A stretch of 64,000 bases of DNA from contig NZ_PYGA01000016.1 in NCBI RefSeq assembly GCF_003014485.1, positions 124,001-188,000 on the forward strand. Direction: 5' to 3'. Below are positions 33,521-38,092 of the stretch, piece by piece. The notes under the pieces are model-generated. The model was not told where the DNA came from. It searched no databases and saw nothing but the letters and a program-made list of their open reading frames with translations. The stretch's first letter is position 1. Every line of letters begins with the position of its first letter. Made by a program: the position numbers and the translations under genes. This DNA is from Murinocardiopsis flavida (GTDB taxonomy: Bacteria; Actinomycetota; Actinomycetes; Streptosporangiales; Streptosporangiaceae).

Positions 33521-34273
33521 GTGCTCACCGAGGTCACCGCCACCCGCTACGTCACACCCCTGCGCGAAGGCGGCTCACTACCCGGCATCGTCGAAGCCGA
33601 CGACGACGGCACCTACGTCGCCAAATTCCACGGCGCCGGCCAGGGCCGCAAAGCCCTCATCGCCGAGATCATCTCCGGCGAACTCGCCCGCCGCCTCGAC
33701 CTCCCGGTCCCCGACCTCGCACTCATCACCATCGACCCCCTCATCGCCCGCGCCGAACCCGACGAAGAAGTCCAAGAACTCCTCAAAGCCAGCGCCGGCC
33801 GCAACCTCGCCATGGACTTCCTCCCCCGCGCCCTCGGCTACGACCCCCTCACCCACGGCATCGACCCCCGCCTCGCCGGCCGCATCCTCTTCTTCGACGC
33901 CTTCGTCGGCAACGTCGACCGCTCCTGGCGCAACCCCAACATGCTCCTCTGGCACCGCGAGCCCTACCTCATCGACCACGGCGCGACCCTGATCTTCCAC
34001 CACAACTGGGCACGCACCCCCGCACCCACCAAGCCCTACGACGCATCCGACCACGTCATGGCGCACGCCCACCCCGACCTCGCCGCCGCCGACACCGACC
34101 TCGCCCCCCGGCTCACCCCCGCACTCCTCACCGAGGCCATCGACCTCGTCCCCGACGAGTGGCTCACCGACGAACCCGGGTTCACCGGCCCTCAGCACGT
34201 GCGCGACGCCTACCTAAACCACCTCAGCGCCCGCGCCGCCGACCGCTCCTGGCTGCCCGAGGTGACCCCGTGA
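33521..34273 (+). CDS. HipA-like kinase family protein
   Basis: A 250-residue protein kinase-like fold, shorter than HipA toxin. It has GSLPGIVEADDDGTYVAKFHGAGQG (nucleotide loop and Lys), LIAEIISGELARRLDLPVPDLALI, FFDAFVGNVDRSWRNPNMLLWHREPYLIDHGATL with the catalytic Asp-Asn pair (VGNVDR, NPN) and the metal-binding Asp in LIDHG. This compact subfamily is typically encoded with DUF3037, as here: GTGA overlap with the next start. Known HipA kinases phosphorylate translation factors; the target here is unknown. Confidence 0.88.
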   Translation: MLTEVTATRYVTPLREGGSLPGIVEADDDGTYVAKFHGAGQGRKALIAEIISGELARRLDLPVPDLALITIDPLIARAEPDEEVQELLKASAGRNLAMDFLPRALGYDPLTHGIDPRLAGRILFFDAFVGNVDRSWRNPNMLLWHREPYLIDHGATLIFHHNWARTPAPTKPYDASDHVMAHAHPDLAAADTDLAPRLTPALLTEAIDLVPDEWLTDEPGFTGPQHVRDAYLNHLSARAADRSWLPEVTP

Positions 34274-34668
34274 CCGCCGCCCCCCGCACCCCCTACGAGT
34301 ACGCCGCACTGCGCGTCATCCCGCGCATCGAACGCGGCGAGCAGATCAACGCCGGCGTCATCCTCTACTCCCAGAGCCACGACTACCTCGCCGCACTGCA
34401 CCACCTCGACACCCACCGCCTGCACGCCCTCGACACCGCCGCCGACGCCGACGGCATCCGCGCGGCCCTCGACGCCATCAGCACCGTGTGCCGCGGCGAG
34501 CCCGGCCAGAGCGCCGCCTGCGACGCCGACCAGGGACGCCGCTTCCGCTGGCTCACCGCCCCCCGCAGCACCATCGTGCAGGCCGGCCCCATCCACACCG
34601 GGCTCACCGCCGACCCCGCGGCCGAACTCCGGCGGCTCCTGCGCGTCCTCGTCCTGCCGACCGGCTGA
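34270..34668 (+). CDS. DUF3037 protein
   Basis: A 132-residue protein coupled to the HipA-like kinase by a 4-base GTGA overlap. The DUF3037 core reads YEYAALRVIPRIERGEQINAGVILYSQSHDYLAA, followed by DADGIRAALDAISTVCRG and FRWLTAPRSTIVQAGPIHTGLT. These proteins nearly always pair with HipA-like kinases and may modulate or inhibit them. Function is unproven. Confidence 0.92.
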   Translation: MTAAPRTPYEYAALRVIPRIERGEQINAGVILYSQSHDYLAALHHLDTHRLHALDTAADADGIRAALDAISTVCRGEPGQSAACDADQGRRFRWLTAPRSTIVQAGPIHTGLTADPAAELRRLLRVLVLPTG

Positions 34669-35062: not shown

Positions 35063-35537
35063 CCCGCGAGCGCACCCGCGCCGCCGCTCACCCGCGCGCC
35101 CGGGTCCGGGCCGCCTCCGCGTGACCGGCACCAGATGGGCGCGCGCCGCCCCCGACACCCGCACGTCCGCGCCGACCGAAACCCCCGCTGTCACTAAACG
35201 ACGCGATACACCGGTCGGCGCATCTTCCCGCCCCGCTCTCAACGCCTGCCATGGCGGCGTTATAGGAGGTCGGGCGGCTTGCCGCTCGAATTGGTCTTTG
35301 CTGTTCTGCTGTGCAGTGCACAGTATCGCCACCTTTACAATGTAGATTCATAAGATGGCGGCCGGGCCGGTATTCGGACCGAAAAGCCGGTGCCGCCCGT
35401 CCCCGGCCCTTGCTAGCGTTGCCCCAGGCTGGCCGCGGGACTCCGGTGCGACTTCCGGACACCGCCTATTAAGCGACAGTTTGCAGCTCGCGCCCCCACT
35501 CCCCGGCCGGCCCCGCACCCGCCCCGCAGGAGCCCGC
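35063..35537. other. Intergenic region upstream of the vWA/ARPP-2 pair
   Basis: About 475 bases without a gene. It has a lower-GC stretch from 35200 to 35360, and CCTTTACAAyGTAGATTCA (35332-35350) shared with 54361-54379. A TAGCGT -10-like hexamer lies at 35414-35419. A large, low-GC regulatory region for a two-gene operon. Confidence 0.55.
35332..35350 (+). promoter_or_regulatory. Shared 19-bp motif, copy 1
   Basis: CCTTTACAATGTAGATTCA matches 54361-54379 with one change (T/C); the similarity continues on the complement as TTGTAAAGG plus GCG. It lies about 190 bases upstream of the vWA gene. Confidence 0.5.
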
Positions 35538-36968
35538 ATGACCGACACCTTCGCCGACCTCCTCGCCTGCGAAGACATCGTCATGTTCGCCAACGCCGCC
35601 ATCGCCGGCACCGGGCAGCGCGAGTTCCGCTCCACCGCCGCCGCACAACGCTTCGGCCTGCGCTTCCTGCACGACTACGTGTGCGGCAACTACCGCGACG
35701 TCTACACCGCGATGCTCGCCATCGACATCAACGACCACAACGCCGCCACGATCATCCACACCCTGCTCGCCACCTCCGCCCAGGCCACCCCCCAGCAGCG
35801 CCGCGCCGAACGCCCCCTCATCGACCGGCGCCTCCGCGGGCTCCCCCCGCAGCGCGCCTACAAGCTCTTCCACGCGCTCCAGCGCGACCGCGTCAACAAC
35901 CGCCGCACCCGCGCGATCATCCGCGACTACCGCGCCGCCCGGCCCGACCCCGCACTGGACGCCGTGAAGTATCGCGCCGCGCTCAAGGCCGCCACCCGCC
36001 ACGCCCACCTGCGCCTGCCCGGCGAGTACGGCACCTTCCTCTACGACCCGCTGCGCCCGGCCCGCTATGACACCCCCCTGCTGGAGACCTGGCGCCGCGC
36101 CCACTACAGCGCAAGCGCCCTCTACGACCTCCCCCTCACCGTCGCCGAGGGCTTCGCCGCCAAGCACGGCATCGCGCGCACCGACTTCCTGCGCGCCATC
36201 GCCCCCGCCGCCACCCGCGGCGAGGCGCTGCGCCTGCAATCCGCCGCCGCGCGGGCCGACGCGCCGGCCCTCCGCGTCGACCTGCACCGGGTCCCCCTCA
36301 CCCGGCTCGCGGGCTACGTGCTCTCCCTCGACCTGGACGAGCGCGCCCGGCGCCGCGGCGAACTCACCGGCGCGCTCGCCGCCGCAGCGCGCACCGCGGC
36401 CGGCCGCCGCGCCGGAACGTGGGGCCGCACCGCCGCCGTCCTCGACGACAGCTACTCCTCGTTCGGCTCCCCCGCCAAGCGCCGCCGCCCGCTCGCGGTC
36501 GCGCTCGCCTGCCACTACCTCCTCGACGCGCTGGCCGAGCGCCACACCAGCCACTGGGTGTCGGGCCGCACCGACCCCCTGATGGCCTACCCCCGCGGGT
36601 CGAGCCCGCTGGCCGAACGCGTCCTCGACGCGCTGGAGACCGCTCCCCCGCGGCTCATCGTCGTCTCCGACGGCCACGACGACACCCCGGACGTGTGCGC
36701 GTCGGTCCTCAGCGCCTGGCGGCACCGCGTCGACCCCGGCCGCGCCACCAGCGTCACCCACCTCAACCCCGTCTTCGACGCCGAGGAGTTCACCCCCGTC
36801 CGCCTCTCCCCCGCCATCCCCACCGTGGGCATCCGCGCCGCCGAGAACCTGCCCGCGCTGGTCGGGCTCGCGCGGTTCGCCGAAGGCACCTCCGGCCTCC
36901 ACGACCTGCGCAGCCACCTCGCCGACCAGGTGGAGCGCTACCTCGCCGACAGCGGAGACCCCCGGTGA
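35538..36968 (+). CDS. vWA protein, Ro60/TROVE-like
   Basis: A 476-residue soluble protein. Residues about 1-290 are helical, resembling the HEAT-like TROVE domain of Ro60/Rsr proteins (LQRDRVNNRRTRAIIRDYRAARPDPALDAVKYRAALKAATRHAH). The C-terminal part is a von Willebrand A domain with a MIDAS-type DxSxS motif (AAVLDDSYSSFGS), the strand LIVVSDGHDDTPDVCASVLSAW and HLNPVFDAEEFTP. Ro proteins bind Y RNA and misfolded RNA; the TROVE assignment here is only by layout. It overlaps the next gene by GTGA. Probably RNA-related, by inference. Confidence 0.65.
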   Translation: MTDTFADLLACEDIVMFANAAIAGTGQREFRSTAAAQRFGLRFLHDYVCGNYRDVYTAMLAIDINDHNAATIIHTLLATSAQATPQQRRAERPLIDRRLRGLPPQRAYKLFHALQRDRVNNRRTRAIIRDYRAARPDPALDAVKYRAALKAATRHAHLRLPGEYGTFLYDPLRPARYDTPLLETWRRAHYSASALYDLPLTVAEGFAAKHGIARTDFLRAIAPAATRGEALRLQSAAARADAPALRVDLHRVPLTRLAGYVLSLDLDERARRRGELTGALAAAARTAAGRRAGTWGRTAAVLDDSYSSFGSPAKRRRPLAVALACHYLLDALAERHTSHWVSGRTDPLMAYPRGSSPLAERVLDALETAPPRLIVVSDGHDDTPDVCASVLSAWRHRVDPGRATSVTHLNPVFDAEEFTPVRLSPAIPTVGIRAAENLPALVGLARFAEGTSGLHDLRSHLADQVERYLADSGDPR

Positions 36969-38092
36969 GCCCCCTGCCCGGCCTGCGCACCGCCGCCGCC
37001 CAGGTGTGGGGCGGCATCCGGCTCGTCCCCCTGATCCGCGACGAGCCGATCACCGACCTGCGGCTGCACGCCCGGATCGACGACGCCGACCTCACGGTCA
37101 GCCGCACCCGCGACGGCGGCCCCTACCTCGCCTACGTGCCGCACGCCTACGTCGCCACGTGGGCGGCAGGCGGCGCGCCCGCCGCGGCGTTCGGCACCCA
37201 GATCATCGACTCCGGCACCGCGCCGGACGCCGTCACCATCCGCGTCCACCAGCGCTTCGTGCAGCGCGAGGCCCGCTCGCGGCTGCGCTTCCTGCCCCTG
37301 CACCTGGCCATGGAGGGCTACCTCGCCCTGCACTTCGGCGGGCCGAGCGTCGTCTGGCCCGAATGGTCCAAGCAGGCGGTCCGCGCCGGTCTGTCGCCGC
37401 GCGCCGAGCGCTCCTATTCGGGGCACCACATCGCCGACCTGGAGGAGGCCCTCCGCGTCTTCGAGATCCTCCCCGGCCAGTGCGGCGTGGTCGTGTACGT
37501 AGGCGACTCCCCCGCGACCGCGTTCGCCGTCCCGCACCCCGACGACTACCGCGCCCTGCACCCGACCCTGCTCCTCGACATGTACGGCGAACTCGTCTTC
37601 GTCAACGGGCTGCTCGGCCCCCGCGCCGCGCCGCTGCACACCCCGTTCGACCACCGCCGCGTCGGCGGCATCGCCGACCTGCGCGCCGTCCTGGCCGAGC
37701 AGCGCCGGGCCTGGGCGGAGTTCCACGACACCCTCATGGCCGGGTCGCTGCGCATCACCGACGAGCACACCGTCGACCACGTCTACTCCGCGGGGAACTA
37801 CCGGCTGGAGCGCTTCCTGCCGCCGTTCCGCCCCAAGGCCGAGAACCACATCGGCGAGCGGATCGTCGCCGCCGACGGCACCGTCGCCTACCTCAAGACC
37901 TTCCGCCTCTCCGAGAACCAGGTGAAGCGGGGCTACGTCCTGGCGGCCCTCGCGGCGCACGACTGGCGGCTCGACGCCGCGGCCGACGCCTTGGGCACCG
38001 ACCGCGGCGGCCTCGTGGCCCGCCTCGACCGGCTCGGGTTCGGCAACCTCCTCCGCCGCGACCTCCGCGACCGATTCGCCCGCCGCCGTTGA
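36965..38092 (+). CDS. ARPP-2-like protein with Fis-type C-terminus
   Basis: A 375-residue protein translationally coupled to the vWA gene. The start (TAAAQVWGGIRLVPLIRDEPITDLRLHARI), then AYVPHAYVATWAAGGAPAAAFGTQII and FLPLHLAMEGYLALHFGG, match what I recall of ARPP-2-domain proteins, found in actinomycete operons with RNA-repair and conflict genes. The C-terminal VLAALAAHDWRLDAAADALGTDRGGLVARLDRLGFGNLL is a Fis-like helix-turn-helix. Function not established; domain call from memory of the family. Confidence 0.6.
   Translation: MSPLPGLRTAAAQVWGGIRLVPLIRDEPITDLRLHARIDDADLTVSRTRDGGPYLAYVPHAYVATWAAGGAPAAAFGTQIIDSGTAPDAVTIRVHQRFVQREARSRLRFLPLHLAMEGYLALHFGGPSVVWPEWSKQAVRAGLSPRAERSYSGHHIADLEEALRVFEILPGQCGVVVYVGDSPATAFAVPHPDDYRALHPTLLLDMYGELVFVNGLLGPRAAPLHTPFDHRRVGGIADLRAVLAEQRRAWAEFHDTLMAGSLRITDEHTVDHVYSAGNYRLERFLPPFRPKAENHIGERIVAADGTVAYLKTFRLSENQVKRGYVLAALAAHDWRLDAAADALGTDRGGLVARLDRLGFGNLLRRDLRDRFARRR

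Follow-up and report, generated by a model that had tools for sequence, protein, structure and literature searches.

A conserved structured RNA linked to a gene pair encoding a Ro60-like protein and ARPP-2 in Actinomycetota, Myxococcota and cyanobacterial plasmids

Results

The gene pair and its upstream region

The DNA analysed here (the window) is a stretch of 64,000 nucleotides (nt) of Murinocardiopsis flavida (assembly GCF_003014485.1, contig NZ_PYGA01000016.1, positions 124,001 to 188,000 of the forward strand), and window coordinates are used throughout for this locus. Two open reading frames lie on the same strand at 35538-36968 (476 amino acids; gene 1) and 36965-38092 (375 amino acids, GTG start; gene 2), of which the first is predicted to encode a Ro60-like protein and the second encodes an ARPP-2 protein. 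The 475-nt region upstream of gene 1 contains a conserved structured RNA, designated here R1. The original prediction, made from the letters of this locus, had spoken of a coupled pair with a large regulatory region; the region is real, and it holds an RNA that the prediction did not describe. The main features are as follows.

35538..36968, + strand: gene 1, Ro60-like (predicted model; Ro60/TROVE structures top-ranked)
36965..38092, + strand: gene 2, ARPP-2 (PF22549 at residues 4-276)
35422..35520, + strand: RNA element R1 as modelled (75-sequence alignment, covariation, 89.7 bits in the window)
35427-35512, + strand: R1 core, about 87 nt
35427-35435 with 35504-35512, + strand: R1 terminal stem, with a bulged C at 35436
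35437-35440 (GGGA) with 35500-35503 (UCCC), + strand: continuation of the R1 stem

The stop codon of gene 1 and the start codon of gene 2 overlap by 4 nt (GTGA), so that the "overlapping starts" noted earlier are a real overlap, but one of stop and start. The same 4-nt overlap is present in 46 of the 50 locus records examined, where some genomes are represented by two records; start codons were chosen by a script as the candidate closest to the upstream stop, which biases this count toward overlaps. The other records have split frames (L004 and L015), a 35-nt gap (L002) or a spacing of 0 (L048). Both genes are present in all 42 Myxococcota records (33 distinct gene-1 sequences), and a separate check there, which looked for an xTGA overlap in the reading frame of the ARPP-2 match, found it in 36 of the 42 and not in the remaining six. 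The set used for context analysis contained both genes in 61 of 67 records (57 once four duplicates were removed); the other six derive from weak or fragmentary ARPP-2 matches and had neither gene by BLAST. The two-gene unit is a conserved module. No description of the pair or its RNA was found in the open-licence literature searched, and the proposal of a candidate undescribed system stands, as does the earlier observation as a whole (both genes, the ARPP-2 identity and the upstream region).

Structure and covariation of R1

A conserved block just 5′ of the start codon was seen in 30 distinct Myxococcota upstream regions and is visible in the window too, and a pattern search located it upstream of gene 1 in most loci. 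A looser pattern gave 75 distinct R1 copies for alignment. It did not pick up L088, L100 and L103; the covariance model recovered R1 in L088 (91.6 bits) and L100 (93.3 bits), not in L103. In the consensus, the terminal stem and one bulged pyrimidine are followed by the GGGA/UCCC continuation and then by an inner helix of the form GG..GCGA/UCG(C/U)..CC; a small hairpin completes the fold.

Across 150 random actinobacterial-myxobacterial pairs R1 has 69% identity, while the 99 nt 5′ of it have 61% in the same pairs, which is the shuffled level (61%). Among the 75 sequences, 96.3% of cells are paired and 14 of the 23 pairs change on both sides, with a covariation of 0.287 against 0.129 for shuffles and at most 0.141 for slid versions, over which the structure is favoured by having been drawn from the same alignment. 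A set of 21 chosen sequences including Nostoc gave 97.0% paired, 10 of 22 pairs changing on both sides, and a covariation of 0.373 against 0.166 for shuffles and at most 0.124 for slid versions; the further pair types in this set were not above shuffles (124 of 500 reached the observed value). The copy in the window folds at z -4.18, one of 200 shuffles being as good. Rfam (15) has no family overlapping R1, whether in the window, at the five other loci compared or on one Nostoc plasmid. Rfam incorporates earlier genome-wide RNA surveys. A tRNA-like RNA was considered as the identity of R1 and rejected, there being no ARAGORN match.

Linkage of R1 to the gene pair

R1 is a conserved, folded RNA linked to the pair in three phyla. 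Its covariance model was searched in whole genomes, with the reservation that the stricter Infernal filters used in large searches can lose weak matches. In an order sample of 200 genomes, R1 was found in 65 and ARPP-2 above the cut-off in 61, with 60 genomes having both; in one of these 60 (G063) the pair is broken. In the sole ARPP-2 genome without R1 (G047), the ARPP-2 match is incomplete at the N-terminus, and the 12 kb fetched contain no gene 1. As for the five R1 genomes without an ARPP-2 call, gene 1 runs off the contig end in two (G146 and G196), the pair is broken in G045, there is no pair in the 9 kb fetched from G073, and G198 has a weak match of 33.5 bits. Within Myxococcota, R1 occurs in 48 of 193 genomes and gene 1 in 50 of 195, 48 of these matches being strong; the genomes with R1 are the same 48 as those with strong gene 1, and the two other matches are a divergent relative (G644) and a weak one (G652). 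A sample of 396 Actinomycetota genomes yielded R1 in two, which are both of the genomes with a full-length ARPP-2 match, and five further genomes with partial or weak ARPP-2 matches and no R1.

R1 adjoins gene 1 wherever it was extracted, and there is one copy per genome among the matches listed, except for G721, where a second R1 lies beside a 32-residue gene-1 relic. The RNA persists at broken pairs (L100, 93.3 bits; L207, 67.3 bits), beside a 32-residue gene-1 relic (L213, 79.3 bits) and where the pair was not found nearby (L208, 46.2 bits). The original prediction had pointed to Y-RNA-like genes as informative neighbours, and R1, a small structured RNA adjoining gene 1, was found in such a position.

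A plasmid search revealed the pair on three Nostoc plasmids, two of them predicted conjugative, the identities being 45.8-47.2% for gene 1 and 42.5-43.1% for gene 2. In a held-out test, the R1 model built without Nostoc matches all three plasmids at 73.6-75.2 bits, directly 5′ of gene 1; the outer stem has a different sequence there and still pairs, except for the outermost modelled pair. Gene 1 and gene 2 are adjacent on the third plasmid. On the two others, XisH and XisI genes lie between them (L218:5849-9402 and L220:5848-9426).

More distant relatives of the pair were also seen. G644 has a divergent vWA gene whose partner is ARPP-1 by Pfam, with an ATGA overlap, and G156 a divergent vWA gene with an ARPP-type partner recognised by alignment only. 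No R1 was detected beside the divergent vWA and ARPP-type pairs at L159:3711-6064 and L104 (minus strand), which represent a second module subfamily. In the 462-kb uncultured phage LR756500.1 (L221:4914-7540), an ARPP-1 gene lies about 8 nt downstream of a distant relative of gene 1. The search of IMG/VR gave no relative by either protein profile, and that of viral contigs by the RNA pattern gave none.

Gene 1 is Ro60-like by predicted fold

The AlphaFold model of gene 1, made from 44 sequences, has a mean predicted local distance difference test score (pLDDT) of 85.0 and a predicted template modelling score (pTM) of 0.83, and consists of a helical N-terminal part (about residues 1-290) and a vWA domain (about 295-452). 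Foldseek against the PDB gave seven matches at E ≤0.001, all of them Ro60 (lowest E 9.8e-6). In VIA-align the top ten entries were all Ro60/TROVE (Z 13.9-18.8 over 397-406 residues, root-mean-square deviation 4.6-5.5), the best reaching Z 18.8 with 403 residues aligned, and Rsr of Deinococcus (2nvo) scoring Z 14.2. The weakest Ro entries lead only slightly, because the vWA proteins that follow begin at Z 13.5; nearly all of these are aligned over the vWA domain alone, and it is the aligned length, over both domains of the predicted model, that separates the Ro entries from them. In a viral library, a Gordonia phage "Ro-like RNA binding protein" ranked third. The predicted model thus combines a ring built of helical repeats with a vWA domain after it.

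The conserved sites of gene 1 that were mapped in the window are:

36444..36458, + strand: DxSxS of the metal ion-dependent adhesion site (MIDAS; D303, S305, S307; 44-sequence alignment)
36603-36605, + strand: MIDAS T356 (44-sequence alignment)
36669-36671, + strand: MIDAS D378 (44-sequence alignment)
35895..35912, + strand: basic patch NNRRTR, codons 120-125 (five of six residues invariant, 44 sequences)

The alignment of 44 sequences, from which the split-frame relatives L004 and L015 were excluded, shows the MIDAS (DxSxS...T...D) with D303, S305, S307 and D378 invariant and T356 in at least 90%. An invariant basic patch is formed by N120, N121, R122, R123, R125, R135, K144, Y145, R146 and H155; by eye, NNRRTR...KYR...H resembles the basic stretch of canonical TROVE proteins, which we treat as a lead only.

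Sequence searches with gene 1 gave a sole sub-threshold row in Pfam (E 0.05), with no significant family, and no match in NCBIfam, PADLOC or PHROGs. Its profile compared with 11 canonical actinobacterial TROVE proteins gave 31.7% probability (E 4.9e-4) over residues 217-379. The predicted structure supports kinship to TROVE, and we call gene 1 Ro60-like and do not file it under PF05731 because the TROVE sequence match is absent. With structure prediction ranking Ro60/TROVE first, the predicted fold and the conserved MIDAS bear out the Ro60/TROVE layout proposed for gene 1; sequence comparison of its helical half with TROVE gave no significant score.

Gene 2 is ARPP-2

Gene 2 belongs to ARPP-2, PF22549 (E 6.8e-111, 370.2 bits against a cut-off of 27), as had been proposed, and it also gives a weak ARPP-1 match. 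The Fis-like tail proposed along with this is only suggestive, its HTH_8 (Fis-type) match being below threshold (E 9.3e-4, 19.3 bits against a 22-bit cut-off):

37934..38032, + strand: Fis-like helix-turn-helix, gene 2 residues 324-356 (sub-threshold HTH_8; helices in the model)

The model of gene 2 has a pLDDT of 79.2. According to passages of Iyer et al. 2022 (PMC9503650), ARPP-1 has an absolutely conserved Cys and Gln. In our alignment of 46 sequences (shortened relative L006 excluded), Q172 is kept in all 46 and aligns with the Gln of ARPP-1-type relatives, but there is no Cys where those relatives have theirs, so that the ARPP-1 combination of Cys and Gln is incomplete in gene 2. Next to the Gln, position 173 is occupied by C in 40 of the 46 sequences and by V in six, and H60, R97, R108, E148, E167, D181, H191, D194 and D205 are invariant. 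Gene 2 therefore resembles ARPP-1-type proteins in retaining their common Gln, and differs from ARPP-1 in the missing Cys and in the added C-terminal helical Fis-like segment. It differs also in context, as ARPP-1 is described beside ADP-ribosylglycohydrolase (in the same passages of PMC9503650), whereas gene 2 sits with a Ro-like gene. No described activity of ARPP-2 was found in the open-licence literature searched.

Putative expression signals

The candidate signals around R1 are:

35270..35289, + strand: terminator-like hairpin between the ArsR-type gene and the operon (pattern scan)
35414..35419, + strand: -10-like box TAGCGT (fixed spacing from the RNA; read in the sequence)
35527..35532, + strand: ribosome-binding-site-like CAGGAG (read in the sequence)

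The hairpin is a weak candidate because one was found against 0.6 expected. The pattern T[AG]NNNT occurs at constant spacing from R1 in 56 of 82 upstream regions, although the sigma-70 pattern scan of the window did not flag the box. R1 begins about 7 nt after it; with the box ending at 35419, transcription would be expected from about 35426-35427, the first stem base. No run of four T is present between R1 and the start codon in any of the 82 upstream regions. A separate small-RNA terminator 3′ of R1, which was also considered, was rejected on this ground; the missing run gives no sign of a separate RNA end and, equally, leaves no classical terminator switch. The distance from the stem to the start codon has a median of 33 nt and is 25 nt in the window, and the closest upstream gene (called by our own script) lies at 134 to 2186 nt.

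Genomic neighbourhoods

Clustering of the two nearest genes on each side at 57 distinct loci, called by the same script, gave 126 clusters, of which 85 had a single member. The largest cluster (13 loci) lies downstream and on the opposite strand; from each of the 14 largest clusters a single representative was inspected by eye. RtcB was found in 0 of 75 neighbourhoods, its positive control having been found (RtcA and RtcR were not searched for), and a canonical TROVE gene likewise in 0 of 75. Both proteins together matched no PADLOC family, and there was no PHROGs match. A defence island was rejected as the setting of the pair for lack of PADLOC or PHROGs matches and of widely shared neighbours.

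Discussion

What is most interesting in our data is the structured RNA family that goes with the pair in three phyla. We consider the best reading of the locus, with a probability of roughly 0.55, to be a Ro-type ribonucleoprotein operon composed of the RNA, a Ro-like ring that would bind it and an ARPP-2 partner, because of the parallel arrangement of a small RNA followed by a Ro-type gene. According to passages of PMC7790460, Y RNA genes lie beside the Ro gene in known Ro systems; in Salmonella rsr, Y RNAs and rtcBA form one operon, and in Deinococcus a Y RNA tethers Rsr to PNPase. On vertebrate Y RNA, according to passages of PMC4726728, Ro60 binds at a helix that carries a single bulged cytidine. 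Our pair shares with bacterial Ro60 (Rsr, TROVE PF05731) the predicted ring-plus-vWA fold over the full length and the MIDAS, and with Ro60 and its Y RNA the small structured RNA beside the gene and, in R1, a stem with a single bulged pyrimidine. With the rsr-yrlBA-rtcBA operon, as outlined in PMC7790460, it has in common that a single transcription unit encodes a Ro-type protein along with a small structured RNA. The differences are that gene 1 has no TROVE sequence match and a fixed ARPP-2 partner, that RtcB is absent nearby, and that YrlA-type bacterial Y RNAs have a tRNA-like module which R1 does not. Accordingly, the RNA quality control or RNA repair role suggested earlier gains support as an RNA role because a structured RNA is linked to the pair, while the RtcB neighbourhood that would have tied it to repair was not found.

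Murinocardiopsis flavida has, in addition, a separate canonical TROVE gene (L125:7794-9359, contig C3). Repeats with tRNA-like D-arm and T-arm motifs lie 5′ of it (L125:9390-9800, minus strand), one of which, about 110 nt upstream of the gene, is called tRNA-Asn by ARAGORN. These repeats may be tRNA-mimicking Y RNAs.

Some bacterial Y RNAs are made by processing from an operon. In the Ro-type operon that we propose, one transcript would run from the base of the structured RNA of about 87 nt through the Ro60-like ring gene into the ARPP-2 gene. R1, either released by processing or kept in the leader, would bind the Ro-like protein through its bulged terminal stem, by analogy with Y RNAs on Ro60, and the bound RNA may control which RNAs enter the ring. 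ARPP-2, which we regard as the probable acting partner because of its tight linkage to gene 1, would have as its substrate either the captured RNA or a ribose-containing nucleotide, and its putative helix-turn-helix, or the Ro-like protein, may exert feedback on the leader or the promoter. Such a complex would probably serve to handle damaged or misfolded RNA under stress. In its fullest form the proposal is an independent kind of Ro ribonucleoprotein, in which a Y-like RNA of no Rfam family would be released from its own mRNA, load the ring and direct ARPP-2 onto captured RNA, and which would be common to Actinomycetota, Myxococcota and cyanobacterial plasmids, with a relative of the protein pair in a jumbo phage; this we put forward tentatively, at clearly less than even odds.

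Several results weigh against the Ro-type reading. Gene 1 does not match TROVE PF05731 at E up to 1, nor does its Myxococcus relative at E up to 5, and the gene 1 family profile finds nothing among PDB sequences at E up to 10. The helical half scores 19.2 against the TROVE profile, which is no higher than column-shuffled profiles can reach (60 shuffles; mean 15.1, maximum 23.5). R1 has no 3-nt bulge opposite the bulged base as Y RNA does, and it is not tRNA-like, ARAGORN finding no tRNA in the window. The gene 2 model has no fold match at E ≤0.001, the best (Z 3.5) being over the helix-turn-helix. The R1 model, finally, finds nothing beside the vWA and ARPP pairs of G644, G156 and the phage, from which it would follow that the link between Ro-like and ARPP proteins recurs and that the RNA marks one subfamily.

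The main rival, and a live one although we think it somewhat unlikely, is that R1 is only a cis-acting leader of the mRNA, a protein- or ligand-sensing or stability element which gives no stable small RNA, the Ro-like protein using other RNAs or none. The single copy of R1 next to gene 1 in nearly all of the genomes listed, its short median distance from the start codon and the consistent absence of a T run, hence of any sign of a separate transcript end, all suit such a leader. The same absence speaks against a classical terminator switch, no ribosome-site switch was noticed (no test aimed at one was made), and R1 is retained beside broken pairs (L100 and L207) and a relic (L213), though the breaks may be recent. 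Inspection by eye also took in a putative cis switch in which a loop pairs with the ribosome site, and a putative hairpin in competition with the small central one. An anti-phage or plasmid-conflict system appears improbable to us. The carriage of the pair by three Nostoc plasmids, two of them predicted conjugative, the related vWA and ARPP-1 pair in the 462-kb phage and the patchy distribution in Actinomycetota are what could be expected of it, and give the phage-conflict role raised in the original prediction some weak support; the lack of PADLOC and PHROGs matches, the scatter of neighbours over mostly singleton clusters and the lack of IMG/VR relatives argue the other way. So does the situation in Myxococcota, where strong gene 1 is present in 48 of 195 genomes and the surroundings are common to all six loci examined, which looks like stable inheritance.

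It is more improbable still, in our opinion, that the vWA protein encoded by gene 1 has proteins as its targets and works in a chaperone-like manner, with ARPP-2 processing a nucleotide or ADP-ribose and the RNA serving only for expression. Passages of Iyer et al. 2022 (PMC9503650) place ARPP and vWA in systems centred on ADP-ribosylglycohydrolase and propose that ARPP acts on ribose; a chaperone-like role has been proposed for vWA proteins in ADP-ribose systems, and the conserved Gln is retained in ARPP-2. The gene 1 model, however, matches Ro60 over both domains, beyond the vWA, and no ADP-ribose gene was seen in the neighbour clusters read by eye (no model search for such genes was made).

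Ro60 is an autoantigen in humans, and what it does together with Y RNAs remains a matter of debate. If the Ro-type reading of our locus is true, a compact bacterial operon would offer a tractable system for the roles of the ring, the RNA and the vWA domain, and ARPP-2 would gain a clear context. R1 stands on its own as an RNA family matching nothing in Rfam 15.

Neighbouring genes and other observations

On its 5′ side the operon is flanked by a HipA_2-type kinase gene with a DUF3037 gene and by an ArsR-type regulator, and on its 3′ side by a glyoxalase-like gene. The HipA_2-type kinase gene and the DUF3037 gene following it (window 33521-34668, just 5′ of the ArsR-type gene) overlap by 4 nt. 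In one Myxococcota genome, at about 5 kb or more from the pair, an Acido-Lenti-1 RNA is present above its gathering score (L161:594-638, + strand), and a second, weaker copy lies in the same genome at L161:427-489 (- strand).

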